Source: a virus. From it: a DNA stretch of 56,209 nucleotides. The notes beneath the pieces were generated by a model. It made no database searches. It was not told the DNA's origin and saw nothing but the letters and a program-made list of their open reading frames with translations. The stretch is taken from positions 1-56,209 of IMG/VR virus record IMGVR_UViG_3300029998_000037; one strand, 5' to 3'. Position 1 is the first letter of the stretch. Each line of letters starts with the position of its first letter. Below, piece after piece: positions 10,229 through 49,135 of the stretch. The position numbers were made by a program, and so were the translations under genes.

Positions 10229-10570
10229 ATGAAAGAAAAAAAATTACCAATTGAATTGTTAATATGCTCATGTCATAATACAGAGCATCAACTCATTCTA
10301 TTACATGAATATGAAGAAGAAATTAAAAAGGATGCTAATGGAAATGAAATGAGAGACGAATCTGGTAAATTAATATTTGATAAAAAGTATCCAATGTGTT
10401 ATGTACATATTCATCTTAATAAACATTCTTTTTTAGATAGACTTAAATATGGCATCAAATATATTTTAGGATATCAATGCCGTTATGGTGCCTTTGATGA
10501 ATTTATTTTTAATCCAGAAGATGCACAAAAATTGCAACAATTAGTTGATCATTTAAATGAACAAATTTAA
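10229..10570 (+). CDS. Conserved hypothetical phage protein
   Basis: A 113-residue protein. Its start L-L-I-C-S-C-H-N-T-E-H-Q-L, the insert M-C-Y-V-H-I-H-L-N and F-D-E-F-I-F-N-P-E-D-A-Q-K-L form a pattern I associate with small conserved proteins of Bacteroidota and gut phages. It has Cys and His pairs that could bind a metal. It is the last gene before the promoter at 10604. No function is established. Confidence 0.65.
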   Translation: MKEKKLPIELLICSCHNTEHQLILLHEYEEEIKKDANGNEMRDESGKLIFDKKYPMCYVHIHLNKHSFLDRLKYGIKYILGYQCRYGAFDEFIFNPEDAQKLQQLVDHLNEQI

Positions 10571-16477: not shown

Positions 16478-16620
16478 TCTTTATCATCTTTTTTATCATC
16501 TTTTTTAATTATTGGAAATATTTCAATTCCCTTACCTTTACATTTTTGACATGTTATTTTAGTATTACTATCATATCCTCTAGCATCACATAAATTACAA
16601 ATTTTATAAGTATAATCCAT
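16474..16620 (-). CDS. Small DnaJ-type zinc-finger protein
   Basis: A 48-residue protein. C-N-L-C-D-A-R-G-Y and C-Q-K-C-K-G-K-G are two C-x-x-C-x-x-x-G repeats, as in one zinc site of the DnaJ cysteine-rich domain. An acidic-basic tail follows (K-K-D-D-K-K-D-D-K-D). Start ATG 16620 overlaps the previous stop as TAATG. It is the last gene of the first packaging-head cluster but lacks the head peptide. Likely a small scaffold or nucleic-acid binder. Confidence 0.65.
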   Translation of the reverse strand: MDYTYKICNLCDARGYDSNTKITCQKCKGKGIEIFPIIKKDDKKDDKD

Positions 16621-17129
16621 TATATATTATATTTTTCCATATTTTTTAGCATTTCTAATTTTTTAATTAATATTCCTTCTGTATAATTATATATTCTAAC
16701 GCTAAACTTAGGTTGAGATTTAGGGTTATTAAACCTTACAAATAATGTGTGCCACTTATCATCATTATCAATTTTAACTAAAAGATCAGAATCATGATAT
16801 CTTGGATTTTCAAATATAACATCTTTACACACACCAATAATACTATGAGGTTTAGAATGTGGAAAATCCTCAAAAAAATCTGAACTATAGCACCAAGTGC
16901 ATTGAAATGCTATTTTTTTATTTATAATTAATTCTTTAACTAAATTATAAAAATCAATACCATATGTTTGACAATCTTCTTTTAAACTTTTTAAATTAAA
17001 TGATTTATATAATTCATCTTTAACCTTAGCAAATTCATCTCTAATTGGTTGCTCACGATGTATAAATGATGGTCCAACCCAACCTACAAGATGCTTTTTA
17101 AATGCCTCATATAATTGTATATGTTTCAT
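16620..17129 (-). CDS. Head-peptide protein (M-K-H-I-Q-L-Y-E start, K-Y-N-I end)
   Basis: A 169-residue protein. It starts with the M-K-x-I-x-x-[FY]-E peptide and ends E-K-Y-N-I, both shared by other minus-strand proteins here. In between, L-V-K-E-L-I-I-N-K-K-I-A-F-Q and a beta-rich section to I-G-V-C-K-D-V-I-F resemble the next gene and two other cluster members, so they form a paralogous family. The N-terminal peptide resembles the T4 capsid-targeting sequence. No enzyme motif is visible. Confidence 0.7.
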   Translation of the reverse strand: MKHIQLYEAFKKHLVGWVGPSFIHREQPIRDEFAKVKDELYKSFNLKSLKEDCQTYGIDFYNLVKELIINKKIAFQCTWCYSSDFFEDFPHSKPHSIIGVCKDVIFENPRYHDSDLLVKIDNDDKWHTLFVRFNNPKSQPKFSVRIYNYTEGILIKKLEMLKNMEKYNI

Positions 17130-17647
17130 ATATTATATTTTTCAGTTTCCTTTTTTAATTTAACTAATTTATGTAATGGTTTATTATCAGCATCATAATC
17201 ATAAATTGTAACTATACTATTATTTTTTATTAAAAAATCACCACAACCATTTAACGTTCCTTGGTACTCCACAAATTTTTTATCTATTAAAATTTGTGGA
17301 GTTTTTAAATTGACATGAAGCCAAAAATCATCTTTATAAAAAAAAATATTAACATTAATAACTTTACCTTTTCTAATTGGATTTTTTTGAATTCTATTCT
17401 CATTTTGAAATATAATAGTTTTATTTAATAGAATTTCTTTAATAAAATCAATAACATCTATATTATATTTACTTTTAAGTTCAGTTTTTTCATCCATGAT
17501 CATCGTATCAACATCAATATCTAAATATTTCATAACATCATTAATAAAGAATTGATCCTTACCAAGCATATAATCATTTTTTACATTTTCAAATATCTGA
17601 TTATTCAGATTTGAACTTTGTTCAAAGATTTTAAATTTTGTTATCAT
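17126..17647 (-). CDS. Head-peptide protein (M-I-T-K-F-K-I-F-E start, K-Y-N-I end)
   Basis: A 173-residue paralogue of the preceding protein. F-I-K-E-I-L-L-N-K-T-I-I-F-Q aligns with its L-V-K-E-L-I-I-N-K segment, followed by G-K-V-I-N-V-N-I-F-F. It ends E-K-Y-N-I, and its stop overlaps the next start in AATATATGAAA. Probably delivered or sorted with the others; function unknown. Confidence 0.7.
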   Translation of the reverse strand: MITKFKIFEQSSNLNNQIFENVKNDYMLGKDQFFINDVMKYLDIDVDTMIMDEKTELKSKYNIDVIDFIKEILLNKTIIFQNENRIQKNPIRKGKVINVNIFFYKDDFWLHVNLKTPQILIDKKFVEYQGTLNGCGDFLIKNNSIVTIYDYDADNKPLHKLVKLKKETEKYNI

Positions 17648-17871
17648 TTTTTCTTTTTTGTATCTTTAATCGCCTCATCTTTAGCATATAATAAATATTC
17701 ACCATTAGTTGTTGTAAGGTTATAAACATATAATCCTTCATTAATAGCTGTTATTATTTCAAGATATTCATCTATTTCATCTTTAGATAAATCATTATTA
17801 GATAATTCATATAATGCCATATCTTTTGTAATTTTTTCACTCTTTATAATTTCCGTTTTAGTTTTTTTCAT
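17644..17871 (-). CDS. Small hypothetical protein inside head-peptide cluster
   Basis: Start taken at ATG 17871 (M-K-K-T-K-T-E-I-I-K-S), giving 75 residues; the frame is open to 17925 with an extra 18 residues. It is acidic and helical and ends in D-T-K-K-K-K, so it has neither the head peptide nor the K-Y-N-I end. The element AAATATAATTTATG at 17907-17920 leads only to M-K-stop, so the original start of this gene may have been damaged. Confidence 0.5.
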   Translation of the reverse strand: MKKTKTEIIKSEKITKDMALYELSNNDLSKDEIDEYLEIITAINEGLYVYNLTTTNGEYLLYAKDEAIKDTKKKK

Positions 17872-17905
17872 AATAAACTTATATTTTTTAAACCATATGG
17901 TTATT

Positions 17906-18001
17906 TCATAAATTATATTTATCAATTTCTTTTTTAATTAGATATTTTTTAAATTTTTCTGGATATTTTGTTTTCAATTCTTCAACTATAGATTTATCAA
18001 C
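17906..18001 (-). other. In-frame continuation of the ankyrin gene after TAA
   Basis: Directly after the TAA at 18002-18004 the same frame stays open for 31 codons and ends K-E-I-D-K-Y-N-L, the terminal motif of the neighbouring cluster proteins. This strongly suggests it is the genuine C-terminus, separated by a nonsense mutation, sequence error or readthrough stop. Confidence 0.65.
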
Positions 18002-18697
18002 TTACATCAATATATCTATAAAATCTTTATTATCTAATGTTTTAATATTCCAATTTGCACCAAGTTCTATTAATTCATACATTATTGGATAAGATACTAT
18101 ATATTTAGCACCAGATGCTGCCATTAATGCAGTACATCCGTTGTAATCCTGAATGTCTAAATCTACACCATATTTAACTAATATTTTAATCATTTTAATT
18201 ATTTTTTCCGCGTTATGACTATATCCTAATATAAGTTTGATTAATGGTGTCCTTCCAAAATTTTTATCTTGAATATTTACATCTGCACCTTGTTTTAATA
18301 AATTTTTAGTTTTTATAATATCAAGAGTTCTAATATAAATAAATAAATCCCTACTATCAATAGGTGTAGTTGGTAAATAATATTTTTTACTTGTCATTCC
18401 ACTAGTTGTAAATGTGTATGACATTAATGATTCAGACATATTATCGTTTTTATGTATAAAATTTTTATGAACTAAATATTTAACATAATTATATATTTCT
18501 TTAGAGTTAGGCAAATCTACACCATAGTTATTATAAATATAATGGTTTATAAATTCAAGAATATGATCCTCTGATAATGATTGATGTATATTAATAATAT
18601 TTTTTATTGCCTTTTTATATAATATTGGAAATAAACTTGTTATAAGTTTTAAATTAAAATTTATACTTTCATTATATAATTCGAATTTAGTTATCAT
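18002..18697 (-). CDS. Ankyrin-repeat protein with head peptide
   Basis: A 231-residue protein starting M-I-T-K-F-E-L-Y-N-E-S. The C-terminal half holds two to three ankyrin repeats: L-L-K-Q-G-A-D-V-N-I-Q-D-K-N-F-G-R-T-P-L, V-K-Y-G-V-D-L-D-I-Q-D-Y-N-G-C-T-A-L and L-I-E-L-G-A-N-W-N-I. Ankyrin repeats bind other proteins. Together with the head peptide this suggests a phage protein carried into the cell to bind a host target. N-E-S near the start looks like a T4-type protease cleavage site. It overlaps the upstream gene by ATGA, and the coding continuation beyond its stop is listed separately. Confidence 0.78.
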   Translation of the reverse strand: MITKFELYNESINFNLKLITSLFPILYKKAIKNIINIHQSLSEDHILEFINHYIYNNYGVDLPNSKEIYNYVKYLVHKNFIHKNDNMSESLMSYTFTTSGMTSKKYYLPTTPIDSRDLFIYIRTLDIIKTKNLLKQGADVNIQDKNFGRTPLIKLILGYSHNAEKIIKMIKILVKYGVDLDIQDYNGCTALMAASGAKYIVSYPIMYELIELGANWNIKTLDNKDFIDILM

Positions 18698-19176
18698 ATA
18701 TTAAATTTTATATTATTTTTATATATTTCAGGATCTATATTTAAATGTACTATAACATCTTTATTTCCTGCGCCTACATTATACCATTCATCTTCTTCAT
18801 ATATTCTTATACTTATATATTCAAATTGAAATGTATATTGAATTTCTTTAACGAATCCGCTTGGCCCTGATTCAAACGAAATTCTATCACATATACCAAA
18901 ATGTGAATTAGAATTTTCATCTTCAAATGATATAACTTTGTCAATTAATAACTTAAAAATTAAATTCCTATATTCACATTCCTGATTTGATATAATTTCT
19001 ATATCAGAAGGTGTAGAATAATGTCCTCTTCTTAATTTTTTAAATTCTCTTTCATTATTAGCAGAATATTCCATTTCACGTGCTAATTGATATAAATTAA
19101 TATATAATTTGTCATTTTTTTCAACTATATTTTTCCATTTATAACCATAGCCTTCATATGTTTTTATAAATTTCAT
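18694..19176 (-). CDS. Head-peptide protein (M-K-F-I-K-T-Y-E start, K-F-N-I end)
   Basis: A 160-residue protein. It begins M-K-F-I-K-T-Y-E-G-Y-G-Y and ends N-N-I-K-F-N-I. Internal L-I-F-K-L-L-I-D-K-V-I-S-F-E and F-G-I-C-D-R-I-S-F-E align with the paralogues at 16620 and 17126. A beta-rich region then follows. No catalytic motif is seen. Likely the same fold and the same targeting as its neighbours. Confidence 0.7.
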   Translation of the reverse strand: MKFIKTYEGYGYKWKNIVEKNDKLYINLYQLAREMEYSANNEREFKKLRRGHYSTPSDIEIISNQECEYRNLIFKLLIDKVISFEDENSNSHFGICDRISFESGPSGFVKEIQYTFQFEYISIRIYEEDEWYNVGAGNKDVIVHLNIDPEIYKNNIKFNI

Positions 19177-22946: not shown

Positions 22947-23846
22947 ATGACACACAACAGAATGCTAGATCGCGCACCCAGCGTTGTAATCACTAGCAAA
23001 AAAAATGAATTAAAAGTTTATCAAGGAAACACCGTTTACTTAAACGATGGTGATAATTTTGAGTTGAGATTTTTTAATCCTATGAATTTCAAAGTAGGAG
23101 TAGAAATAAATTTCAACGGAATAAAAAAAGGAGATGGTTATTTAGTTTTAAATCCAGGACAAGATATAATTCTCGATAGGTTTTTAGATGAACAACGAAA
23201 AATGTTGTTTGAAACTTATATTATAAATGGTAATAGCAAAGAAGCTGTTGAAGCAATTGCTAAAAATGGTATAATTACATTTAACTTTTATAAAGAACAC
23301 GGCTCTTATGTGCCTGAAGATGTAAATATCAATTATGCGTTTCCACCTAAACCTTTTAAGCATACTAGACATGTTAAAGGTATGAATGGAAATTCAGGCA
23401 CAGTTGGAAATTCAGGCACAGCTGGAACACCTTATTTTACAAATTCAGTTACCACTAGCGTAAATTATAATAGCACATTTACTTCACCTGGAGTTTCTTT
23501 CTTTGAAAGTGATATATCTTATTCTACAGGATCACTATCAAGGGGAATAAGTACAGAAAATCTTGATTTAGATGAAGACTATTGCTTTACATCTAGTTCT
23601 ATTCCAGTAATAGATAATTTAGAAACTGGAAGAATTGAAATGGGGGAAATATCAAATCAGCAATTAAAAACTGTTAATGCGCAATTTTCATCAACACCAA
23701 TTCATACTGTTACATATCAATTACTTCCTTATTCAGCAATGAATCGTACAATTGGTGAAATAAGAGAATATTGCACTTCTTGCGGATACAGATTAAGAAA
23801 AAACACATGGGATTTTTGTCCTAAATGTGGATCAAAAATTAATTAA
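22947..23846 (+). CDS. Beta-rich protein with C-terminal zinc ribbon
   Basis: A 299-residue protein. Residues 15-130 form a beta-rich domain (S-V-V-I-T-S-K-K-N-E-L-K-V-Y-Q-G, F-E-L-R-F-F-N-P), the middle is a Gly/Ser/Thr linker with G-N-S-G-T repeats near 150, and residues 272-295 hold C-T-S-C-G-Y-R-L...F-C-P-K-C-G-S-K-I, a classic zinc ribbon. It is transcribed with the vWA gene seven bases downstream. The pairing recalls two-gene systems where a vWA protein works with a zinc-ribbon partner, but no function is known. Confidence 0.7.
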   Translation: MTHNRMLDRAPSVVITSKKNELKVYQGNTVYLNDGDNFELRFFNPMNFKVGVEINFNGIKKGDGYLVLNPGQDIILDRFLDEQRKMLFETYIINGNSKEAVEAIAKNGIITFNFYKEHGSYVPEDVNINYAFPPKPFKHTRHVKGMNGNSGTVGNSGTAGTPYFTNSVTTSVNYNSTFTSPGVSFFESDISYSTGSLSRGISTENLDLDEDYCFTSSSIPVIDNLETGRIEMGEISNQQLKTVNAQFSSTPIHTVTYQLLPYSAMNRTIGEIREYCTSCGYRLRKNTWDFCPKCGSKIN

Positions 23847-23853
23847 TAGAACT

Positions 23854-24462
23854 ATGAAAAAGATAGATATAATATGTATATTAGATATGTCAGGCTCTAT
23901 GGAATCTATTATAGACAAGGCAAGAGAAGGATTTAATCAATTCTTAAAAGAGCAACAAGAAAGTAAAAATAAAATAAAATTTTCATTGTTATTTTTTGAT
24001 ACAAATTTTTATATGCCATATAAAAATATTAATATTAAAAAAGTAAAACCTGTTAATGAAGATACTTATTATGCTCATGGCGGAACTTCACTTCTGGATG
24101 CTGTAGGATTTTCAATAAATTCTTATTTAGATGATTTAGCATTAATTCCAAAAAATAAAAGGTCTGATAAAACTTTATTTGTTATTTTAACAGATGGATT
24201 TGAAAATAGTTCTAAAGTTTATCATCGCGAATTAATAAAAAATATGGTAACTGAAATACAAGAAGAATTTAAAGCGTCTTTTATCTATTTAGGCGCAAAC
24301 CAAGATGCGTGTTTTGAAGCAGAATCAATGGGCATAAATAAAACTAATGCATTTAATTATGATGCAACTAATAATGGTATAACAGTTGCTTATGCAAATA
24401 TATCAAAATCTGTAAATTATTATGCTAATAATGATGTAAAGGAAAACTTATTTCAGCAATAA
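23854..24462 (+). CDS. von Willebrand factor A domain protein
   Basis: A 202-residue cytosolic vWA domain, start at ATG 23854. D-M-S-G-S-M-E-S (11-18) is the MIDAS D-x-S-x-S motif; A-H-G-G-T-S-L-L-D-A-V supplies the threonine, and L-T-D-G-F-E-N-S the last acidic residue. vWA domains bind protein partners through a metal. Bacterial homologues appear in tellurite-type stress systems and defence islands. It lies behind the zinc-ribbon protein and before a terminator. Confidence 0.85.
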   Translation: MKKIDIICILDMSGSMESIIDKAREGFNQFLKEQQESKNKIKFSLLFFDTNFYMPYKNINIKKVKPVNEDTYYAHGGTSLLDAVGFSINSYLDDLALIPKNKRSDKTLFVILTDGFENSSKVYHRELIKNMVTEIQEEFKASFIYLGANQDACFEAESMGINKTNAFNYDATNNGITVAYANISKSVNYYANNDVKENLFQQ

Positions 24463-24794
24463 CAAAAAAGTTTAAAAATGGAATCAAATTGATTCCATTT
24501 TTTTATAAAATTCATAAAATTTATCTTTTTTTCTTGATATCCATTTTTATTTTCATTATAATCATGCGACCCCCAACTATTCCAAACATTTAAATTTATA
24601 TTTGCATCAGGAATATAAATATATTCATATTTACCAGATGATATAACCTCATTATTAAGGATATATTTAATCTGTTTATCTGGCAAATTAAGTTTATATA
24701 AGCTTGTTTCTAAATATGGACTATCTGCTCTAATTTTCCAATATGTTTGTTTAGCGTTGGGCTGAATAGAGTCAAATGTTTTAATATATTTCAT
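24453..24794 (-). CDS. Head-peptide protein with likely frameshifted end
   Basis: A 113-residue protein beginning M-K-Y-I-K-T-F-D-S-I-Q-P. As read, the last 20 residues pass through the terminator and end in F-C-Y-C. In the A7 run at about 24523-24529, one extra A would change the end to E-K-K-D-K-F-Y-E-F-Y-K-K-M-E-S-I and stop inside the terminator arm. That looks far more natural. The body is beta-rich (Y-E-Y-I-Y-I-P-D-A-N-I-N). Function unknown. Confidence 0.6.
   Translation of the reverse strand: MKYIKTFDSIQPNAKQTYWKIRADSPYLETSLYKLNLPDKQIKYILNNEVISSGKYEYIYIPDANINLNVWNSWGSHDYNENKNGYQEKKINFMNFIKKWNQFDSIFKLFCYC
24474..24505. terminator. Rho-independent terminator between converging genes
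   Basis: AATGGAATCAA and TTGATTCCATT pair and are flanked by A and T runs, so it can work in both directions. Confidence 0.8.
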
Positions 24795-25612
24795 TTTTTA
24801 TTAGTATTTTCAATAATCATTTGTAGGTGAGTATTTTCTTTCAGTTCAATATCAAAATCTTGTTTAATTTGATTTTTCAAATACTCATAAGTATAATGGT
24901 TTTCATAAATTATTTTCCAATTACTTGGAATTTTTTTCTTTATTGTTTCTAATGAAACTGGTAAATAATTTTCTTTTGATTCTCTATCCCAGTTTGTTGT
25001 ATATTTATACTTCAATAGCCAATGTAATAATACTCTAAAATTTGTTGAGATATCACCCCATTTGCTTTCAAAATCATGTAAATATTTAGGATCTGATTTT
25101 TCTTTTATTTTTTTAATATCTATCATATTCATTTTATCAAAAGATGTCGATGGTATCATATCTCTAATAATAATATACTTAAATTTATTATTAAAAACTT
25201 GTTCATTCCAAAATTGCCTAATTTCACTTGAAGTGCCATAACTATAAACTTCGTGTATAACAGATGACAATAATATTGCAGCATTATAACTATTAACATT
25301 TTGTATTACTTCATTCCAATTAGAATAAAAATCAATGTCTGGGTATTGATTTTTAGATATATTAATCATATCATCATCAATATCATAACCAATTAAATTA
25401 ATATCTGGTTTCATTTTGTATATTTCTTTTAATAATGATCCATCAGCACATCCAAAATCTACTAATGTGTCCATATCTATTTTATTAAAAAAGAATAATT
25501 TATCAGCCAATCCTTTATTCATTTTTCCGATATATTCATTAATATCAGATATTGGATTTGATGTTAATTTAAACTCAAATAAAAAATCTTCAAATAGTTT
25601 TATCTTTTTCAT
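24791..25612 (-). CDS. SAM-dependent methyltransferase with head peptide
   Basis: A 273-residue protein. It starts M-K-K-I-K-L-F-E-D-F-L-F-E, the shared N-terminal peptide. Around residue 52, V-D-F-G-C-A-D-G-S-L-L is motif I of class I methyltransferases. G-Y-D-I-D-D-D-M is motif II, and A-I-L-L-S-S-V-I-H-E-V is the motif IV region. The acceptor is unknown; a small molecule, RNA cap or protein are all possible. The head peptide suggests the enzyme is carried in the virion. ATGA-type overlap with the next gene. Confidence 0.82.
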   Translation of the reverse strand: MKKIKLFEDFLFEFKLTSNPISDINEYIGKMNKGLADKLFFFNKIDMDTLVDFGCADGSLLKEIYKMKPDINLIGYDIDDDMINISKNQYPDIDFYSNWNEVIQNVNSYNAAILLSSVIHEVYSYGTSSEIRQFWNEQVFNNKFKYIIIRDMIPSTSFDKMNMIDIKKIKEKSDPKYLHDFESKWGDISTNFRVLLHWLLKYKYTTNWDRESKENYLPVSLETIKKKIPSNWKIIYENHYTYEYLKNQIKQDFDIELKENTHLQMIIENTNKK

Positions 25613-25941
25613 ATGTTATATTTTGCTATAATATTTTTTTCATCTTGTAGCATTATTTCTTTTTTAGTTGCAAATCTAAAATATTTCTTATCGCTACATA
25701 TCATGTTATAATAGTCTGTTATATATCCATTTTCTGGACAATTAGGGTTAATATCATATAAAATTCTAATCATCTCTTTACTACAAGATATTACTTTACC
25801 AACATTAGTAGTCACAAAAAGTTTTTTGGCTTGTCCTTGATGTCCAGAATTATATTCAATTGGAAAATTTGGTAAAGCAATTACAAAATCTTCTGATTCA
25901 AAATTTTGATAAAAATCTTCAAATAGTTTTATTCTTTTCAT
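25609..25941 (-). CDS. Head-peptide protein (M-K-R-I-K-L-F-E start, K-Y-N-I end)
   Basis: A 110-residue protein with both shared ends. In between, E-D-F-V-I-A-L-P-N-F-P and F-V-T-T-N-V-G-K-V-I-S-C resemble an SH3-like barrel; C-P-E-N-G-Y-I-T-D-Y-Y and R-F-A-T-K-K-E-I precede the final helix, as in other members that end with [RF]-x-A-T-x-x-E-I and K-Y-N-I. Confidence 0.68.
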   Translation of the reverse strand: MKRIKLFEDFYQNFESEDFVIALPNFPIEYNSGHQGQAKKLFVTTNVGKVISCSKEMIRILYDINPNCPENGYITDYYNMICSDKKYFRFATKKEIMLQDEKNIIAKYNI

Positions 25942-26279
25942 ATGTTAAATTTTTTAGATTTTGGTAATAATTCTGCGGTATTTATACAATCTTGTAAATT
26001 ATCTGATTCATATAGTATTTCATATTTATTATACGGTGTATCCACTATTAAAAAATTATCTAAATCTAACCATTTTCCTTCTAATCCATCATAAACAGCA
26101 AGTCTTCTAACTTCTAAAAATATTCTTTCATGAATATTTTTTCTTGTTGGATCTCTATATATTTGCAATATTTCACATACAACATATGTATCATGAATTC
26201 TAGCATTTAGTTGCCAAATTATATATTTTTTAAGTTTTGGCAATTCTTCTAATTCTTCGTATAATTTTATATATTTCAT
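25938..26279 (-). CDS. Head-peptide protein (M-K-Y-I-K-L-Y-E start, K-F-N-I end)
   Basis: A 113-residue protein. Between the shared ends it is beta-rich: I-I-W-Q-L-N-A-R-I-H-D-T-Y-V-V-C-E-I-L and F-L-E-V-R-R-L-A-V-Y. The final helix is L-Q-D-C-I-N-T-A-E-L-L-P. It overlaps the gene downstream by four bases in AACATATGAAA. No family is assigned. Confidence 0.68.
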   Translation of the reverse strand: MKYIKLYEELEELPKLKKYIIWQLNARIHDTYVVCEILQIYRDPTRKNIHERIFLEVRRLAVYDGLEGKWLDLDNFLIVDTPYNKYEILYESDNLQDCINTAELLPKSKKFNI

Positions 26280-26281
26280 AT

Positions 26282-27598
26282 TTACATATTAAATTTTGAG
26301 ACTGTTTCTTTGAATATAAATTGTTCATAAGCTTCAATTTCTTCTGCTGTTTTTTCTTCTTTTAATTTATTTTCAAATTCTGGTGTTAAAATCCATTGTA
26401 AAATTTTACCATTATAATGTTTAGACAATTTAAATAAATTTAAATACACTCTATTATAATCTATCCAAATATTATAATTATAATCAAAAACAGCATATTC
26501 AAAATTATCTTTAAATGCTTCTAAATTATCAATTGCTATTATTTTTTCAAAAATTTCTTCTGGTGAATTAATATAATTAACAATAGTATCTTTTATTTCT
26601 TTTTTTAAATCCTTAAAATCGCCCAAATTTTCATAATGTTCAGATTCAATATCATATGAAAAATCATTAAATTCAGAAACATTTTCTAAAAATTCTGCGA
26701 TTGTTTTAACATCTAATTTATGTTTTTTCATATATTCTATTATTGTATCATAATCAAAATTTAATTCTAAATCAAATCCATTAGAATACTGTGAACTTAA
26801 TTCAAATGGTAAACTTTTTATTGAATCTTTTGCTGTTTTTGATACTGCACGTTCATTTTCATAACTTATTTCTGTTATAAAATCATCTAATTTATCTTTT
26901 AATCCTAAATAATTAAATAATTTATTAATTTCACCATCTTCTATATTACCATCATCTTCTAATTTTAAATTAAATTTGAATAATTCTGCGAATTCTTTAA
27001 TTTTAATTGTTATCTCTGGATTTAAATAACGTTCAATATAATTTAATTCGTCTTCATCTACATAATATTCATAACCACTATAATAACCATTAAATTGTAA
27101 ATAATATTCTAAAATATTTGATTCTATATTTACTAATTTTTCTAATTTACTAGATTTCATAAAAAGTGTGAGACTATCTTTATCATATTCTGGTTCATAT
27201 CTATAATAACCAGAACTTTTTAATTTATAATCTTTTTCATCTAGCCCTATATAATTTGCAATATTTTCTGGTTTAAAATCTGGTGATTCTAATACCTGTA
27301 TTAAATTTTCTTTTTCATCAACATTTGAATTTTCTTTAATAGGATTATTTCGAAAATATTCAGCTTGTTTTAATGTCTTAAAACTTATATCTCTAAGTTT
27401 TTTAATCTTAGAATTTTTATCATTATTTAATTTAGTTCTCTTATGTGGATCTTTTTCTTTACCCAATCTTTTTCTATCACTTTTAATACCTTTTTGTAAA
27501 TATACAGCATTCTTAAGTAATCCGTTCTTAACTTTAAAAGGTTTAGCGGAATTTATTGTTATTGGCTTGAAATTTTCGTAACTCTTAATATATTTCAT
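26282..27598 (-). CDS. Large head-peptide protein, 438 residues (K-F-N-M end)
   Basis: The largest member of the cluster. It starts M-K-Y-I-K-S-Y-E-N-F-K-P and ends V-S-K-F-N-M. Residues 20-75 are highly basic (K-S-D-R-K-R-L-G-K-E-K-D-P-H-K-R), which would suit DNA or RNA binding or a protease-processed pro-region. The remainder is acidic and helical with no recognised catalytic motif. If packaged, it would be a candidate injected effector. Confidence 0.7.
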   Translation of the reverse strand: MKYIKSYENFKPITINSAKPFKVKNGLLKNAVYLQKGIKSDRKRLGKEKDPHKRTKLNNDKNSKIKKLRDISFKTLKQAEYFRNNPIKENSNVDEKENLIQVLESPDFKPENIANYIGLDEKDYKLKSSGYYRYEPEYDKDSLTLFMKSSKLEKLVNIESNILEYYLQFNGYYSGYEYYVDEDELNYIERYLNPEITIKIKEFAELFKFNLKLEDDGNIEDGEINKLFNYLGLKDKLDDFITEISYENERAVSKTAKDSIKSLPFELSSQYSNGFDLELNFDYDTIIEYMKKHKLDVKTIAEFLENVSEFNDFSYDIESEHYENLGDFKDLKKEIKDTIVNYINSPEEIFEKIIAIDNLEAFKDNFEYAVFDYNYNIWIDYNRVYLNLFKLSKHYNGKILQWILTPEFENKLKEEKTAEEIEAYEQFIFKETVSKFNM

Positions 27599-28811: not shown

Positions 28812-28834
28812 AAGTCGTATTGGACGACTTTTTT
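28812..28834 (+). terminator. Rho-independent terminator
   Basis: AAGTCGT-ATTGG-ACGACTT followed by TTTT; it isolates the upstream pair from the vault-like gene. Confidence 0.8.
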
Positions 28835-28916: not shown

Positions 28917-31328
28917 ATGGCTTACGAAAACAAAAGAGGAGACTTGATTCTCCCACAAGGCACATTTGTATATATACAAGATGGCGCATCTGGCACAGTA
29001 CAAGTTGCTGTTGGTCCATACAAAGAATCAATAGGTGAGATTGACAAAATCGTTATCTTTGATGAACGAACAAAGAAATTTGTTCAAGCAAATGAATTTT
29101 CAGATGCTATACAAGTCGCTAGATCAGCAGACGAAGGTCAATATATAGTATTAATTAATCCAGCTGAGCCTAAAGATAATGAACAAAAATTTCCTCAAAG
29201 AGGGAAAAACTCACAAACAATTACTCTTAAAACAGGGAGTAAAGTAAATATTCCAGGACCTGCAACTTTTCCACTTTGGCCAGGTCAAATCGGTAATGTA
29301 TTAGATGGACATAACCTTAAATATAATGAATACCTTATTGTAAGGGTATATAATGAAGAGGAAGCTAAGAAAAATTTATCTAATGCAATCGTTAAAACAG
29401 CTGCGACTGATGATAAACAATCTAAATCTTTAATTGCAAAAGAAGATTTAGTAACAGGTAAACTTCTTGTTATAAAAGGTACAGATGTATCTTTTTATAT
29501 TCCGCCTACAGGTATTGAAGTTGTTTCAGAGAATGGACATTATGTTCGTAAATCTGTAACATTAGAGAGATTAGAATATTGTATCTTATTAGATCAGAAT
29601 GGTGACAAAAGGTATGAAAAAGGACCTGCAGTTGTATTTCCTAAGCCAACTGAGGAATATCTTGAACAAGATGGTAAGAAAAAATTTAAAGCTCTTGAGT
29701 TAAATGATAATATGGGTATTTATTTAAAAGTTATTGCTGATTATGAAGAAAATGGCCGTCAATATAAAACTGGCGAAGAACTTTTCATTACAGGAAAAGA
29801 ACAAAAAATATATTTTCCAAGAGAAGAACACGCAATTATCAAATATGATGATAGAGCGATGCACTATGCAGTAGCAATTACTGGTGGCGAAGCACGATAC
29901 GTTCTTAATAAAGACACAGGTAATATTTCATTATTTGTTGGACCAAAAATGTTCATTCCTGATCCACGGAAAGAAGTTATTGTAAAAAGAATTCTTGATG
30001 AAAAAACAATAAAATTATGGTTTCCTGATAGTACTGATGCTATTCAGCATAATAAATTATTAGAAGCTGAAATGAATCAGAATGATTTTTCTGATCTTGG
30101 ATATAGAAGTAATGCATATGTTACTGATAGAGGATTTTCTAAGCAAGTTAAAAGTTCATCTTTGAATATGGCAGATGAAATGGCCAGAAAAAATACTTTT
30201 ACAAAACCAAGAACATTAACAATGGATAACAAGTATGAAGGTGCTGTAACAATAAATGTTTGGCCAGGCTTTGCTATTCAAATAGTTAAAAAAACTGGAG
30301 AAAGGGAAGTTGTTGTTGGTCCAAAAGTTAGATTACTTGAATTTGACGAAACACTTGAAGTTCTAGAACTTTCAACTGGTAAACCAAAGACAGATAATGT
30401 TTTAATGAAGACTGTGTATCTTCAAACTGAAAATAATGTTGTATCTGATATCATAGACGCTGAAACTAAAGATTTAGTAAATGTGAAAATTAGATTATCT
30501 TATAGAGTTAATTTCACAGGAGATAATAAGAAATGGTTTAATGTTTCTAATTATGTAAAATTAATGACTCAACACCTTCGTTCACTTGTTCGTAATAGAG
30601 TTAAAAAGATTAATATTGAAGATTTCAACAATGATCCTGCTGATATTCTTAGAGATACAATTTTAGGAACAGCAGAAGAAGGTAAAAAACGAAATGGAAA
30701 AACATTCTCAGAAAATGGAATGCAAGTTTATGATATTGAAGTTCTTGATATAGTTATTGGTGACCAAGAAATTTCATATTTCCTTAAGGATTATCAAAAA
30801 CACATTGTAAGACAAAATTTGGAAATGAACAAACTTCAAAAAGATTTGGATAATGTTAAAAAAGAAGAAGATATCAAAAGACAAAATTTGTTAGAAGTAG
30901 CTAAAACAGATGAAATTCGTTTAACAATAAATACAAATAAAATTGCAAACGCAAATGCCGCAGAATTGTTAAAAGTAAATGCTGAAAAAGAAAGACAAGC
31001 TATTCTTGATGAAATTTCAAAAATGATTTTTGAAATTTCAAAACTGAAAGATGAACATAAACTTGAAGTTGAAAAAGAAAGTTCTGAAATTCGTACAGCA
31101 GAATATGAAAAACAGATGTTAGCTATTCAGCCTAAGTTAATTGAAGCCATGATTACTCTTGGTGGTGTTAAAACAACTGAAATCCTTGCAAAAAATCTTA
31201 AAGAGCAAGGAAACGATTGGACAAATCTTTTCAAAAAAGGTGGAATTGAAGGATTATTAGATACAGTTAAAGGTACACCTTTATATGATAATTTAGTAGC
31301 AGTTCTAAATCCAAAAAAAGCAGAATAA
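28917..31328 (+). CDS. Vault/SPFH-like protein, 803 residues
   Basis: Several repeats of a beta unit with G-P-x-x-F-x-P occur in the first two thirds: I-P-G-P-A-T-F-P-L-W-P-G-Q, V-G-P-K-M-F-I-P-D-P-R and V-V-G-P-K-V-R-L-L-E-F-D-E. This pattern and order resemble the repeat domains of major vault protein. An SPFH-like domain follows (V-N-V-K-I-R-L-S-Y-R-V-N-F, around 520-620), then a long helical region (about 630-760), as in vaults and stomatins. It probably forms a large cytosolic ring or shell. Terminators lie on both sides, so it is transcribed alone. Its G+C content is slightly raised. Confidence 0.62.
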   Translation: MAYENKRGDLILPQGTFVYIQDGASGTVQVAVGPYKESIGEIDKIVIFDERTKKFVQANEFSDAIQVARSADEGQYIVLINPAEPKDNEQKFPQRGKNSQTITLKTGSKVNIPGPATFPLWPGQIGNVLDGHNLKYNEYLIVRVYNEEEAKKNLSNAIVKTAATDDKQSKSLIAKEDLVTGKLLVIKGTDVSFYIPPTGIEVVSENGHYVRKSVTLERLEYCILLDQNGDKRYEKGPAVVFPKPTEEYLEQDGKKKFKALELNDNMGIYLKVIADYEENGRQYKTGEELFITGKEQKIYFPREEHAIIKYDDRAMHYAVAITGGEARYVLNKDTGNISLFVGPKMFIPDPRKEVIVKRILDEKTIKLWFPDSTDAIQHNKLLEAEMNQNDFSDLGYRSNAYVTDRGFSKQVKSSSLNMADEMARKNTFTKPRTLTMDNKYEGAVTINVWPGFAIQIVKKTGEREVVVGPKVRLLEFDETLEVLELSTGKPKTDNVLMKTVYLQTENNVVSDIIDAETKDLVNVKIRLSYRVNFTGDNKKWFNVSNYVKLMTQHLRSLVRNRVKKINIEDFNNDPADILRDTILGTAEEGKKRNGKTFSENGMQVYDIEVLDIVIGDQEISYFLKDYQKHIVRQNLEMNKLQKDLDNVKKEEDIKRQNLLEVAKTDEIRLTINTNKIANANAAELLKVNAEKERQAILDEISKMIFEISKLKDEHKLEVEKESSEIRTAEYEKQMLAIQPKLIEAMITLGGVKTTEILAKNLKEQGNDWTNLFKKGGIEGLLDTVKGTPLYDNLVAVLNPKKAE

Positions 31329-31346: not shown

Positions 31347-31385
31347 AAAAAAATGAGAAATATTTTAATATTTCTCATTTTTTTT
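31347..31385. terminator. Strong Rho-independent terminator
   Basis: TGAGAAATATT and AATATTTCTCA pair, with A7 before and T9 after. It ends the vault-like transcript. Confidence 0.9.
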
Positions 31386-31399: not shown

Positions 31400-31765
31400 A
31401 TGAAAAATTTAAAATATATTTATCTTGATGATTTAAGAACACCAGTTTGTGATATTTGGACAATTGTTAGGAACTATGTGGAATTTACTAAAACAATTGA
31501 ATCAATTGGATTGGAGAATATTGAAACAATTTCATTAGATCATGATCTTGGATTAAGTGAATTTGAAGATGAAAAAACTGGATATGATTGTGCTAAATAT
31601 TTAGTAGAGATATCTATAAATACAAAAATTAAACTTCCACAAATTTTTGTACATTCTTCTAATCCAGTAGGAAGCTTAAATATTATAAAATATGTAAATA
31701 ATTATTTACATTTTTGTAAACTTCCTGAAACTTGTGATATTATTAATATTAAATTTAAATTATGA
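31400..31765 (+). CDS. Receiver-like protein (cyclic-phosphate-processing receiver family)
   Basis: A 121-residue protein: Y-I-Y-L-D-D-L-R-T-P at the start, I-S-L-D-H-D-L-G in the middle and I-F-V-H-S-S-N-P-V-G near the end. These match the cPRR family, predicted to act on RNA ends or cyclic phosphates in RNA repair contexts. It is monocistronic. The LDDLR and LDHDLG acidic residues would form the metal site. Confidence 0.75.
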   Translation: MKNLKYIYLDDLRTPVCDIWTIVRNYVEFTKTIESIGLENIETISLDHDLGLSEFEDEKTGYDCAKYLVEISINTKIKLPQIFVHSSNPVGSLNIIKYVNNYLHFCKLPETCDIINIKFKL

Positions 31766-39945: not shown

Positions 39946-40140
39946 TTAAGGCTTTCCTTTAAATGAAATAACATCTTTTGTGTGATTAGGCGGCATCATA
40001 ACTGGCTCAATTTCACCAATTTTTTTTCTTTTTTTCTTTCTTTCTTCATTTTTATATGATGGATGCTCTCTTGTAGGTGCAACAAATTCTATTGGATTAA
40101 TCTCAGGAAATAAATTTTCAAATGTTTTTAAGTGTTTCAT
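39946..40140 (-). CDS. Short head-peptide protein (M-K-H-L-K-T-F-E-N)
   Basis: A 64-residue protein. After the head peptide it contains P-E-I-N-P-I-E-F-V-A-P-T, a very basic E-E-R-K-K-K-R-K-K and ends S-F-K-G-K-P without K-Y-N-I. It is the last gene of its cluster, so nothing follows that would need the linked start element. Possibly a DNA-associated internal peptide. Confidence 0.62.
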   Translation of the reverse strand: MKHLKTFENLFPEINPIEFVAPTREHPSYKNEERKKKRKKIGEIEPVMMPPNHTKDVISFKGKP

Positions 40141-40143
40141 ATT

Positions 40144-40434
40144 CTATATATTATATTTTAATGCATTTAATTCTAATTCTGTTAATAATCGTAAATTTTT
40201 TAATAAAATCCAATGATGATTATTTGTTTCAAGTGACTTTACCCAGACTTGCAAAGTTGGTTCAGAAATTGAATCTATTCTAAAAATCTCATCATAATCA
40301 TCCAAATTAAACTTAATATTAGCATTAAATTTAACATATTTACCTTCTTTAAAATCTTTATATTTATTTTTGAAAATAGATAAGTTATCTTTTTTTATGG
40401 AATACACATTTTCAAATTTTTTTATATGTTTCAT
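40144..40434 (-). CDS. Head-peptide protein, SH3-like (M-K-H-I-K-K-F-E start, K-Y-N-I end)
   Basis: A 96-residue protein with E-G-K-Y-V-K-F-N-A-N and W-I-L-L-K-N-L-R-L-L-T-E-L-E between the shared ends. The pattern matches 27595 and 40438: barrel, a [RK]-x-L-R-L element and a short helix. Stop and next start are separated by GAAT. Confidence 0.65.
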   Translation of the reverse strand: MKHIKKFENVYSIKKDNLSIFKNKYKDFKEGKYVKFNANIKFNLDDYDEIFRIDSISEPTLQVWVKSLETNNHHWILLKNLRLLTELELNALKYNI

Positions 40435-40437
40435 ATT

Positions 40438-40743
40438 TTATAAATTATATTTATCAACATCAAATTCAAGGGTCGTCTTAAATCTTGTTGACTCCCAACC
40501 CTTTGTAATTTCATTAGTTTCTAAATTTACAACATCAACTCTCATATAATCTTTTTTTAAAAATTTATCTTCTGGCAATTTATATATTTTTAGAACTTTG
40601 TATTTATCACCTTTATCTATTGCGAAATATTTACCTGTCGGATTGTATTTATCATCAGAACAAATCACAATATCACCTTCTTCATAATCTAATGCTTGCC
40701 CTGTTTCAGTTGAAAAAAATTCAAATGTTTTTATATATCTCAT
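40438..40743 (-). CDS. Head-peptide protein, SH3-like (M-R-Y-I-K-T-F-E start, K-Y-N-L end)
   Basis: A 101-residue protein. Y-E-E-G-D-I-V-I-C-S-D-D and Y-K-V-L-K-I-Y form the first strands; W-E-S-T-R-F-K-T precedes D-V-D-K-Y-N-L. Same architecture as its downstream neighbour. Confidence 0.65.
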   Translation of the reverse strand: MRYIKTFEFFSTETGQALDYEEGDIVICSDDKYNPTGKYFAIDKGDKYKVLKIYKLPEDKFLKKDYMRVDVVNLETNEITKGWESTRFKTTLEFDVDKYNL

Positions 40744-40746
40744 ATT

Positions 40747-41010
40747 TTATACATTATATTTTTTAGAATTTATTATCATTTCTACATCTTCTATATTTTC
40801 TGATAAAGACCAGTTAAGATTCTCCCAATCATCATCTTCAATATAATTAGACGTTATATTATATCCTAATTTTTTTAATACCTCATCCCAACGAATAGAA
40901 TGTCCTTGATATAATAATTTACCATTATAATAAACTCCTTCCCAATCATCACCTCTCATAATGATAAGTTTTTTATCATCTATATTTTCAAATAATTTTA
41001 TATGTTTCAT
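40747..41010 (-). CDS. Head-peptide protein (M-K-H-I-K-L-F-E start, K-Y-N-V end)
   Basis: An 87-residue acidic protein: L-I-I-M-R-G-D-D-W-E-G-V-Y-Y-N-G, then W-D-E-V-L-K-K-L-G-Y and an acidic D-D-W-E-N-L-N-W segment. It starts inside the 3' end of the upstream gene (23-base overlap), which still preserves the AATATATGAAA element out of frame. Confidence 0.65.
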   Translation of the reverse strand: MKHIKLFENIDDKKLIIMRGDDWEGVYYNGKLLYQGHSIRWDEVLKKLGYNITSNYIEDDDWENLNWSLSENIEDVEMIINSKKYNV

Positions 41011-41476
41011 ATATTATATTTTTTAATTGTAATTTTTGTTTAAAATCTTCTATTGATATTTTATTTATTATATTATCAACATTATCAACAACTTCAAAAT
41101 TTACCTGAAAAAACATATTATCTTCACTATGTAATTTTAATCCTTTTATAGTTTTAAAATATTCAGGAATAAAATTTGCTAAATCATCATTTGTACTTCC
41201 AATTCTTTCTGTAATTGATAAAAATATTAATGAATTAGAAAACTCACCATTAATATCAAAGCAATTATGTCCAGGATGTCCACGGTCTAAATGACTAAAT
41301 AAACCTATTTTATTACTAAAAAAATTATTAACATATTCAAATTCATCATATTTTGGCAAATGATAATATCCTAATTCTTTAAACATTTCTACTAAATGAC
41401 TTAATAACTTTTTAAGATCATCTAATCTTGGATTTGGATTTGTAGCAAATATTTCAAATTTTTTTAAATATTTCAT
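40988..41476 (-). CDS. Head-peptide protein (M-K-Y-L-K-K-F-E start, K-I-I end)
   Basis: A 162-residue protein. L-D-D-L-K-K-L-L-S-H-L-V-E-M-F-K helix, then R-G-H-P-G-H-N-C-F-D-I-N-G, a His-rich loop. It does not end in K-Y-N-I, but the bases AAAAATATAATATATG still sit near its end in another frame, ahead of the next ATG. Important for judging why the motif is conserved. Confidence 0.65.
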   Translation of the reverse strand: MKYLKKFEIFATNPNPRLDDLKKLLSHLVEMFKELGYYHLPKYDEFEYVNNFFSNKIGLFSHLDRGHPGHNCFDINGEFSNSLIFLSITERIGSTNDDLANFIPEYFKTIKGLKLHSEDNMFFQVNFEVVDNVDNIINKISIEDFKQKLQLKNIIYETYKII

Positions 41477-41928
41477 ATATTATATTTATTTGTATTTGAA
41501 TATAAATCAACAATATTTTCTATTTCTGTTGGTTCTCCATATATCTTAACTGGTTTAGTAAAATCAACATCAATAAACTTATTTTTTTCATCTAATATTA
41601 TTGAATAAGTAATTTTTTTAAAAAAAACCGAATAAAAAAATTTAACATATGTAACTTTACCATCATATAAATCACCATTTAAACCAACAAATACAACTTT
41701 TCTATTTTTTATAAGTATATCTTGAATTAATTTCTCAACTGTATCATCTAATGGAACTGTTAACCAGTTAGGTACTAACTTGTCTAAATTTTTAAAAAAA
41801 TCAGTAGACCTAAAATTGTTATCTCTTTCATTATGAAATATTTTTTTGAAATCATTATAAAATTTAATAGCATCAAACTCATAATAAGTGGTCTTATTAA
41901 AATTTTCATATTTTTTTAAATACTTCAT
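41473..41928 (-). CDS. Head-peptide protein (M-K-Y-L-K-K-Y-E start, K-Y-N-I end)
   Basis: A 151-residue protein. V-E-K-L-I-Q-D-I-L-I-K-N-R-K-V-V-F and G-K-V-T-Y-V-K-F-F-Y align with the paralogues at 16620, 17126 and 18694. It is the first gene of the cluster's tagged set and lies three bases from the Nudix gene. Confidence 0.68.
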   Translation of the reverse strand: MKYLKKYENFNKTTYYEFDAIKFYNDFKKIFHNERDNNFRSTDFFKNLDKLVPNWLTVPLDDTVEKLIQDILIKNRKVVFVGLNGDLYDGKVTYVKFFYSVFFKKITYSIILDEKNKFIDVDFTKPVKIYGEPTEIENIVDLYSNTNKYNI

Positions 41929-45859: not shown

Positions 45860-48800
45860 ATGAGAAAATTAAAAAGAGTGATGTTAGTGATAATGCTTAT
45901 ATTGTTTTCAATAATAGCAAAATCACAAGAAACCACTTCTGAAATTTCAGGAACAATTTTAGAAGGCAAGTCGCCATTACAAGATGTTGTAGTAATGGCA
46001 GTTCATGTTCCAACAGGCACTAAGTATATGACAACGACTAGAACTGATGGTCGTTATAACTTACCAAATTTAAAAATTGGTGGGCCATATACTTTAACAA
46101 CAGCTTTTGTTGGACTTAAATCAGAAAAAATAAACAATATCTTTCTGAATTTAGGTCAAACATTTAAACAAAATTTTGAACTTACTGATGAAGCGATCCA
46201 AGTAGGAGAAGTTATTGTAAAAGGCGTTCAAGACAAGACATTTAGTAGTTCAAGAACTGGTTCTCAGGAGTTAATAACAAGAGCTCAAGTTGATCGTTTA
46301 CCAACAATAAATCGTTCAATTCAAGATTTTGTAAAATTAGAACCTACCTCCCAAGGATTGAATATTGGCGGCAGAAGTAGTCAATATAATAATATGACAG
46401 TTGATGGAGCTAATTTTAATAACTCATTTGGTCTATCATCTATCTTAGGTGGACAAACATCCGCACAACCAATTTCATTAGAAGCTATTGAACAAATTCA
46501 AGTTAACGTATCACCATATGATGTTAAGCAAGGTGGATTTGCTGGAACAGGCGTTAACACCGTAACTAAAAGTGGAACAAATACTTTCAAAGGAACTATT
46601 TATCAATATTCTAGGAATGAAAATTATTTAGGTTACAATGTTGGTCCAACAACAGTTGTAAAAACTCCTTTTGATTATTCTATCAAAGGATTTAGTTTAG
46701 GAGGTCCAATTATCAAAGACAAATTATTTTTCTTCGTAAGTGGAGAACAAGTTAGACAAGATGCACCAGCGACTTCCATGCTGCCTTCAGACGCATCTCA
46801 TGCTGCTGGTGGAAACTATTCTCAAGCAAACGCTGACACTTTATCAGCTTTATCTAGTTTCTTAAAGACCAAGTTTGGATATGATCCAGGTGCTTTTCAA
46901 GGTTATACTTTCAAAACCTATTCTGATAAAATTACTGCAAAATTAGACTGGAACATTAATAGTAAGAATACTTTTACATTAAAATACAACTACTTAAAAT
47001 CATCATCCGATCAATTTGCATCTACTTCAAGACCAGGCTCTGGTCAAACAACTGGTGGGCAGCCAGGTACCTATTCAATGCCTTTCTATGGTAGTGGTTA
47101 TGTAATCAATAATAACTTTAATATTTTTATTGCTGAATTGAATACTCATTTCAATAATAGGCTATCAAATAAATTACAAATTGGTTATACTGCATTGAGA
47201 GATTTCCGTTCTCCTCATTCTAGTAGTGGAACTTTCCCATTAGTTGATATTTTAAACAATGGTAATATTTATACAACCTTTGGTTACGAAATGTACACTT
47301 ACAATAACGTATTGAATACAGACGTTTATCAATTAAATGACATCTTAACTTATTATAAAGGTGCGCATGAACTCACAGTAGGTACTCAAAACTCAATTAA
47401 AAAATATCAAAACGCATTTGCGCCTGGTTATCAAGGTGTTTATCAATTCAATAGCTTGACAGACTTTTATAATTCAGCAAAAAACGGAAAGTTAAATGCT
47501 AAATCATACTACTTGCAATATTCAGCTTTACCTAATGGTGAATTTCCTTGGGCTAATGCCGGATCAACAGAATTATCTCAGTTCATACAGGATAAGTGGA
47601 AAGTATCAAATGATTTCACCTTAACTTTTGGCTTGAGACTTGATGAAACCTTCTACAAACAGTCAATGACAGATAATCCAACATTTGATGCATTAAAATT
47701 CAAAGATGGATCGACTTATAACATTGGTAAAGCTCCAATGAATAATATTATTGTTTCACCAAGATTAGGTTTCAACTGGAATCCTAAAGGTGATAAAACA
47801 TTACAAGTCAGAGGAGGTACTGGTATCTTCGCAGGACCTCCACCATTCGTTTGGATTTCTAACCAGGCTTCAAACAATGGTATTCAATTTGGTTCATTCA
47901 CCAATGCAGCTAACAAAACAGCGTTTAATGTTGATCCTAATGCTTTAAGACCAACAGCTGGATCTGCTAATGCTTCTTATAGTACTGCTTTGGTTTCTAG
48001 CAACTTTAAATATCCAACAGCTTGGAAGTCATCTTTAGCTATTGATAAGAGATTGGAAGATGGCTGGATGATTGGCGCTGAATACAATTATACACAAGAC
48101 ATTAATGCAGTTTATTACTCTAACATAAATTTAAATGAGTCCAACGGATTTGCATTAGGTGGTGTTGATAACAGAACCCGTTACTTAACTTCGGTTGCAA
48201 ATACTAACAAATATTATGCAGGAACGCCAACAGCGACCTTAGAAAATCCTAATATAGGTAATGCAATTTTAATGAGTAATTCAAGTAAAGGCTATGTTTA
48301 CACTTTGACTGCAAAAATTCAAAGAACTACTGAAAATTTAGCCTATGGTATAGCATACACACGTTCAGTATCCAAGAACACCGCAGAATATGGATCAACA
48401 GCCTCGTCATTATGGAGTGCAGTACCTGTTTCTAATCAGGATCCTAATGCGGCTAATTTGGGTTATGCGTCATATTATCAGCCAAACAGACTTATTGCCA
48501 ACTTCGCTTACAAACTAAATGAAGGAAAATATCTTGCTACAACATTTGGAGCAATTTACGAATTAACTAATAACGGTGTAAATTCATATGTTTATAATGG
48601 TGACTTAAATGGTGATGGTAATTCAGGTAATGACTTGATGTATATTCCAAAAACAATTGCTGACATCAACCTAGTTAAAGTCGGCTCTGGAGGTTTAGGT
48701 ACAATTACAACAGGTGTTACTGACACAAGAACATCTGCACAAATTTGGTCACAATTAGACGCTTTTATTTCTAATTCAACCTATCTTAATACTCACAGGG

Positions 48801-49135
48801 GTCAATACTCTAAAAGAAATGCAACTGTAGCGCCATACTTTAGTCACTTAGATTTAAATATTACACAAGATATTAAATTTAAGACACACACACTTAAGTT
48901 TTCAGTGGATATGATTAATGCTGGAAACTTAATTAACAGAGATTGGGGTGTTGTTAAAATTCCTACAGCTACTAACATATTAAAATATGAAGGTCTCGCT
49001 GCAGATGGAAAAACTCCTTCATTTTCGCTTCCATTCCAGACAGGAACAACTCCATTTACTCAACCATACCAAAATTCAACAGGTATTAGTTCAAGATGGC
49101 AAATGATGTTTGGTATTAAATACCTATTTAATTAA
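45860..49135 (+). CDS. TonB-dependent outer-membrane receptor, 1091 residues
   Basis: Residues 1-22 form a signal peptide. Residues 28-110 are a carboxypeptidase-regulatory-like domain (G-T-I-L-E-G-K-S-P-L-Q-D-V-V-V, T-D-G-R-Y-N-L-P-N-L). The plug follows (N-I-G-G-R-S-S-Q-Y-N, M-T-V-D-G-A-N-F) and then the long beta barrel, with N-x-K-N-T-F-T-L-K-Y strands and a C-terminal F-N. No SusD partner is next to it. It is G+C richer with more varied codons than the neighbours, which signals recent transfer from a Bacteroidota chromosome. Terminators on both sides make it an independent unit. It would be placed in the host outer membrane, possibly blocking a rival receptor. Confidence 0.9.
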   Translation: MRKLKRVMLVIMLILFSIIAKSQETTSEISGTILEGKSPLQDVVVMAVHVPTGTKYMTTTRTDGRYNLPNLKIGGPYTLTTAFVGLKSEKINNIFLNLGQTFKQNFELTDEAIQVGEVIVKGVQDKTFSSSRTGSQELITRAQVDRLPTINRSIQDFVKLEPTSQGLNIGGRSSQYNNMTVDGANFNNSFGLSSILGGQTSAQPISLEAIEQIQVNVSPYDVKQGGFAGTGVNTVTKSGTNTFKGTIYQYSRNENYLGYNVGPTTVVKTPFDYSIKGFSLGGPIIKDKLFFFVSGEQVRQDAPATSMLPSDASHAAGGNYSQANADTLSALSSFLKTKFGYDPGAFQGYTFKTYSDKITAKLDWNINSKNTFTLKYNYLKSSSDQFASTSRPGSGQTTGGQPGTYSMPFYGSGYVINNNFNIFIAELNTHFNNRLSNKLQIGYTALRDFRSPHSSSGTFPLVDILNNGNIYTTFGYEMYTYNNVLNTDVYQLNDILTYYKGAHELTVGTQNSIKKYQNAFAPGYQGVYQFNSLTDFYNSAKNGKLNAKSYYLQYSALPNGEFPWANAGSTELSQFIQDKWKVSNDFTLTFGLRLDETFYKQSMTDNPTFDALKFKDGSTYNIGKAPMNNIIVSPRLGFNWNPKGDKTLQVRGGTGIFAGPPPFVWISNQASNNGIQFGSFTNAANKTAFNVDPNALRPTAGSANASYSTALVSSNFKYPTAWKSSLAIDKRLEDGWMIGAEYNYTQDINAVYYSNINLNESNGFALGGVDNRTRYLTSVANTNKYYAGTPTATLENPNIGNAILMSNSSKGYVYTLTAKIQRTTENLAYGIAYTRSVSKNTAEYGSTASSLWSAVPVSNQDPNAANLGYASYYQPNRLIANFAYKLNEGKYLATTFGAIYELTNNGVNSYVYNGDLNGDGNSGNDLMYIPKTIADINLVKVGSGGLGTITTGVTDTRTSAQIWSQLDAFISNSTYLNTHRGQYSKRNATVAPYFSHLDLNITQDIKFKTHTLKFSVDMINAGNLINRDWGVVKIPTATNILKYEGLAADGKTPSFSLPFQTGTTPFTQPYQNSTGISSRWQMMFGIKYLFN

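Follow-up and report, generated by a model that had tools for sequence, protein, structure and literature searches.

The vault, a giant particle in the shape of a barrel, is best known from animal cells, where it consists of two 39-mer halves. Bacterial homologues of the major vault protein (MVP) are reportedly the subject of a 2019 bioRxiv preprint by Sokolskyi (872010), and a 2023 bioRxiv preprint by Santos et al. (10.1101/2023.11.10.566534) is said, judging by its title, to report the first MVPs of viruses, found in bacteriophages of the human gut. Reviews still confine vaults to eukaryotes or state that prokaryotes lack them (PMC11855390, PMC9778704), and three papers on huge or jumbo phages, among those open to searching, do not mention them. 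An origin of vaults from an early virus has been discussed and so far dismissed (PMC7916137). Here we describe an open reading frame (ORF) in the virus record IMGVR_UViG_3300029998_000037 of IMG/VR (positions 1 to 56,209; this 56,209-nt stretch is hereafter the window) that encodes a true MVP homologue rather than a loose look-alike. Overall, we consider it likely to be the MVP of a huge phage, forming a shortened vault-like cage.

The phage protein has the domain order of eukaryotic MVP (PDB 4v60, 4hl8, 9bw5, 9z4w): beta repeats, a Vault_3 repeat, a shoulder, a cap helix, and a cap. Sequence alignment between the two begins at the last repeat and extends into the cap, and the folds match across the whole chain, but the proteins share about 20% identity, eukaryotic MVP has nine repeats where the phage protein has about seven, and the latter is found in phages. 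No TEP1 or vault RNA partner of the phage MVP was identified; PARP4 was not searched for. Bacterial MVP homologues from Nannocystis, Saprospira, Plesiocystis, Riflebacteria, and others are similar to it in length and domain order, with about 42% to 50% identity over the full length. Because these relatives share the length of the phage protein, its shortfall from the nine repeats of animals is read as variation within the family. SPFH/Band 7 proteins (prohibitin, flotillin, HflK/C, and stomatin) have the same shoulder fold and long helix but lack the stacked vault repeats, and they carry membrane anchors, which are absent from the phage MVP. The "predicted vault protein" carried by Borgs (PMC12660748) is also found on a huge extrachromosomal element, although an archaeal one, and is likened here by description rather than by sequence.

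The initial annotation of the window had regarded a vault-like compartment in phage infection as new. Phage MVPs themselves are not new, since the title of the 2023 preprint reports viral MVPs in gut phages. Those proteins, which are likened to the present one by title only, are also phage-encoded, whereas the present phages were drawn from many metagenomes and include records of up to 735 kb.

Sequence evidence for a phage major vault protein

The frame opens with an ATG at position 28917 and its stop codon ends at 31328, where the initial annotation had placed it. The encoded protein matches the Pfam family MVP_shoulder (PF11978) at aa 506-616 with an E value of 3.3e-27 (95.3 bits against a cut-off of 25) and Vault_3 at aa 445-502 with 3.4e-9 (37.2 bits against 28.8). 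The match to Band_7 stays under its cut-off (20.9 bits against 23.6), although some relatives exceed it. A plain Band_7/SPFH protein was ruled out by this score together with the lack of a membrane anchor; no transmembrane segment was found, the highest 19-residue hydropathy mean being 1.0. Searches of PHROGs and NCBIfam gave no match. A single-sequence search of the PDB matched major vault proteins exclusively (2e-12), and a profile of 37 phage homologues matched mammalian MVP at an E value of about 1e-40. This alignment starts at residue 458 of mammalian MVP and spans the last repeat, the shoulder, the cap helix, and the start of the cap, extending to residue 823 of human MVP.

The repeated G-P-x-x-F-x-P beta units noted in the initial annotation are real as a motif. 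Three GPxxF/FxP-type units (aa 114, 236, and 342) are present, whereas the expectation for shuffled sequence is 0.01, and none of 5000 shuffles reached three. Glycines 33, 114, 236, 342, and 468 are invariant among 101 relatives, and the proline that follows each of them is either invariant as well or reaches at least 90% conservation. Single repeats show weak sequence likeness in a profile self-comparison, however, and the case for vault repeats therefore rests on Pfam, profile, and structural evidence. Comparison with the nearest relatives gives dN/dS values of 0.06 to 0.19, which show strong purifying selection on the gene.

Predicted structure

Two AlphaFold2 (AF2) models were built, from alignments of 37 phage sequences and of 101 phage and bacterial sequences; both have a mean predicted local distance difference test score (pLDDT) of 76 to 77. 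Both start with stacked beta repeats and a low-confidence linker, which are followed in order by one further repeat, the shoulder, a long helix, and a short helical cap. The shoulder domain has a pLDDT of about 90 to 96 in the second model, and the cap helix exceeds 110 residues, spanning 617 to 729/747. The linker at aa 391-440 (pLDDT 30 to 48, low conservation) occupies the same place as the flexible loop of human MVP at residues 429-449 (PMC13347060). Boundaries and number of the vault repeats were set by eye, and strands, length, and alignment register point to a count of about seven, against nine in animals.

In a Foldseek search of the PDB, places 1 to 16 are all MVP, the best at 1.8e-33 over about 900 columns. 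VIA gives a Z of 22.8 for solved vaults, whereas prohibitin and other SPFH proteins reach about 12; this result was repeated with the deeper alignment. The repeat stack matches murine MVP R1-R7 at Z 11 to 14 across the two models (in the first model, Z 13.9 over 334 residues, with a root-mean-square deviation [rmsd] of 4.8). Alignment begins at residue 5 of the murine crystal structure and residue 7 of the phage protein, suggesting that the N-terminal repeat for pairing of half-vaults is kept; this pairing runs through R1 (PMC13347060). Structure prediction, the check proposed in the initial annotation, thus returned solved vaults as the top matches over nearly the whole chain. It bore out the order given there, of repeats, SPFH-like shoulder, and long C-terminal helix, rather than a structure with no vault repeat or SPFH fold.

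Distribution and history of the family

Two scans of IMG/VR located about 50 loci with the phage MVP family. In INPHARED, the family is limited to records of huge phages from metagenomes, LR756500 (462 kb) and LR756501/503 (735 kb), of the Al-Shayeb set, and a search of plasmids gave no match. Bacterial genomes contain at least 216 MVP relatives, of which 80 were retrieved. The carriers are scattered and include the named isolates Nannocystis, Saprospira grandis, Plesiocystis, and Thermoflexibacter as well as Riflebacteria, and 6 of 247 Bacteroidia genomes have the gene. The viral structure library BFVD returned only SPFH proteins and one giant-virus protein, and no phage MVP is listed there. 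The giant-virus protein, an 802-aa "prohibitin domain" protein of Harvfovirus (A0A3G5A4K1), is the best match in that library (full length, 2.4e-12) and is perhaps another viral vault-like protein.

Fusions at the N-terminus of animal MVP sit inside the particle, at the waist. Two phage MVPs (L022:9515-12691 and L050:9485-12637) are extended at the N-terminus by about 170 aa bearing CxxCxGxG zinc-finger-like motifs; given where the animal fusions lie, this segment could serve as a cargo binder built into the protein. The gene after MVP in this phage clade encodes a membrane-anchored Band_7 protein. In one genome of up to 392 kb (loci L043 and L044), the MVP frame is broken around position 10400, apparently by a frameshift that is either real or a sequencing error.

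In trees of full-length proteins, most bacterial MVPs form one group that broadly tracks phyla, apart from the phage MVPs, which form several deep clades. A constraint grouping all cellular sequences was rejected (approximately unbiased [AU] test, p 1.6e-16). One MVP inside the phage clade of the window (L055:7911-10376) comes from a Cytophagales contig that also holds ordinary chromosomal genes, and the gene has therefore moved between phage and bacterium. Two loci filed as cellular are phage contigs judged by their neighbours; one of these, L054, is filed under a Lokiarchaeota genome and has many genes matching phage relatives of the window. Neither the placement of eukaryotic MVP nor the root of the tree could be resolved, with path lengths above 10. 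The family bears on the dismissed idea of an early virus as the origin of vaults.

Gene neighbourhood and a possible link to RNA repair

Hairpins with T-runs flank the MVP gene (Table 1) and are probable terminators, with z scores against shuffles of -3.1 upstream and -8.1 downstream, in agreement with the initial annotation, in which the gene stood between strong terminators. An Rfam search of the window gave no match. The next gene, 72 bp downstream on the same strand, encodes a cyclic-phosphate processing receiver (cREC) domain protein, a possible functional partner. Proteins of this type have been proposed to clear 2'-3' cyclic RNA ends or to act on cyclic ADP-ribose (PMC7824862), and 14 of the 27 phage records with MVP contain cREC. 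In bacteria, homologues of MVP are stated to lie in operons together with RtcB RNA ligase and noncoding RNAs (PMC13404743). An RtcB gene (L029:12639-13820) lies 116 bp downstream of MVP on the same strand in one phage, and a TROVE gene lies 4.4 kb downstream of MVP, also on the same strand, in another (L015). No neighbouring gene is common to MVP loci across phage clades or across bacteria. Among 20 MVP-bearing bacterial genomes, 9 have TROVE, a figure that stands without a matched background.

Proposed function and alternatives

By homology with animal vaults, chains of the phage MVP would be joined in pairs by the N-terminal repeat and line up next to one another, with the cap helices forming a bundle. 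In the infected cell this would give a hollow, vault-like structure, either a full cage or half of one, that is shorter than its animal counterpart; that the protein forms such a cage is probable. The cage might enclose RNA or enzymes that process RNA ends and so help the phage to survive cleavage of tRNA or other RNA by the host, although we propose this cargo only tentatively and consider it doubtful. A broader and still less likely scenario is that the shortened vault of huge phages is a cytoplasmic compartment for RNA repair or RNA protection against tRNA-cleaving defences, and that vaults are old in the conflict between phages and bacteria and also reached eukaryotes.

Several results weigh against the proposed cage and cargo. 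The global predicted template modelling score (pTM) of both AF2 models is only 0.48 to 0.50, and the shape of the whole chain is therefore uncertain; long-range rmsd values in the structure comparison are large, and the cap helix is poorly conserved in sequence. The downstream terminator separates the MVP gene from that for cREC. RNA-repair genes are only mildly closer to MVP than expected by chance in 15 phage records (P 0.013 to 0.09, depending on distance cut-offs that were chosen post hoc, after the data had been seen), and P is 0.02 to 0.34 when the window is left out. TROVE occurs in 3 of 26 MVP phage records, MVP is absent from TROVE phages (0 of 7 fragments), and in Bacteroidia the genomes with MVP (6 of 247) and with TROVE (13 of 247) do not overlap; on these grounds, a TROVE partnership was set aside. 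Because the closeness is mild and post hoc and TROVE lacks a reciprocal association, the cage is held with moderate to high confidence and its RNA-repair cargo with low confidence.

The shoulder and helix might instead act as an SPFH-type membrane scaffold. Like flotillin, HflK/C, or prohibitin, they would form a ring or half-cage at the inner membrane of the host that shapes a membrane patch or shields phage proteins from FtsH, and the vault repeats would simply lengthen the wall. The SPFH core does match prohibitin, erlin, and stomatin at Z 10 to 12, a membrane-anchored Band_7 protein is encoded next to MVP in the phage clade mentioned above, and animal vaults have been observed attached to membranes by their shoulder (PMC13100048). 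We consider such a scaffold unlikely, since the phage protein has no transmembrane or strongly hydrophobic segment, scores far over the cut-off for MVP_shoulder while failing that for Band_7, and retains the MVP-type repeats and cap region that SPFH membrane proteins lack. In human vaults, the shoulders are binding sites for NAD+, ADP, and ADP-ribose (PMC13174449), and a cage whose shoulder pocket binds NAD+ or ADP-ribose could act as a nucleotide sink against defences that deplete NAD+ or use cyclic ADP-ribose, with the adjacent cREC, in its proposed activity on cyclic ADP-ribose or 2'-3' cyclic ends (PMC7824862), opening the cyclic product. A stoichiometric sink would be an unusual counter to an enzyme, and this role appears improbable.

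It is more improbable still that the protein belongs to the virion or its assembly, for example as an inner-body component of a large head. Its size, its probable self-assembly, and the very large genomes of these phages would suit such a part. Close relatives are found among ordinary chromosomal genes of bacteria, however, and no structural genes were recognised around MVP in the window. A terminase match was obtained in 11 of 26 MVP phage records (above the cut-off in 8), and in most records that have both genes they lie tens to hundreds of kilobases apart. The existence of bacterial relatives and the chromosomal Cytophagales copy nested in a phage clade, which indicates movement of genes between phages and bacteria, might also describe a passenger recently taken from a host and without a role for the phage. 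The low dN/dS, the several deep phage-only clades, and the presence of one copy per record throughout the 26 searched (a set chosen because it carries MVP) speak against a passenger, to which we give very little credence. A vault-like cage remains the favoured reading of the phage MVP. The function of vaults has been open for forty years, and full-length MVPs of phages and bacteria offer a new way in; the compact seven-repeat form, with its possible RNA-repair neighbours, is a simpler system that could be made in E. coli, a host in which MVP assembles into vault-like particles (PMC9778704), and tested by gene removal.

Other features of the window

Table 1 Features of the MVP locus and other genes in the window
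Feature	Coordinates	Strand	Basis or description
Hairpin and T-run upstream of MVP gene	28812..28830	+	Probable terminator of preceding operon
Phage MVP gene	28917..31328	+	803 aa, 91 kDa; ORF, Pfam, profile, AF2, dN/dS
N-terminal stack, about six vault-type beta repeats (aa 6-360)	28932..29996	+	Strand pattern in model; murine R1-R7 fit
Helix and poorly conserved low-confidence linker (aa 361-440)	29997..30236	+	AF2 pLDDT; conservation
Last vault repeat, R9 equivalent (aa 441-504)	30237..30428	+	Pfam Vault_3; mammalian MVP alignment
Shoulder, SPFH-type domain (aa 505-617)	30429..30767	+	Pfam MVP_shoulder; second AF2 model
Cap helix (aa 618-735)	30768..31121	+	Continuous helix in both AF2 models
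Cap region (aa 736-803)	31122..31325	+	Profile alignment up to human MVP residue 823
Long A+T-rich hairpin and T-run downstream of MVP gene	31347..31384	+	Probable terminator
cREC domain protein	31400..31765	+	Pfam PF20274, E 1.7e-23; next gene downstream
von Willebrand factor A domain protein	23827-24462	+	PF00092; phrog_7371
TonB-dependent receptor-like outer-membrane protein	45860-49135	+	1091 aa; Plug, OMP barrel, CarboxypepD_reg

The von Willebrand factor A domain protein is encoded upstream of MVP, at a distance of about 4.5 kb. The TonB-dependent receptor-like protein, encoded here by a phage, has a copy of 86% identity in the sister record behind locus L005 and possibly serves in receptor masking or in nutrient uptake during infection. 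More than ten minus-strand ORFs (16620-19176, 24791-27598, and 39946-41928) share a tag at their start, roughly MK(H/Y)(I/L)K(x)(F/Y)E(N/D), which is perhaps a targeting or cleavage signal.
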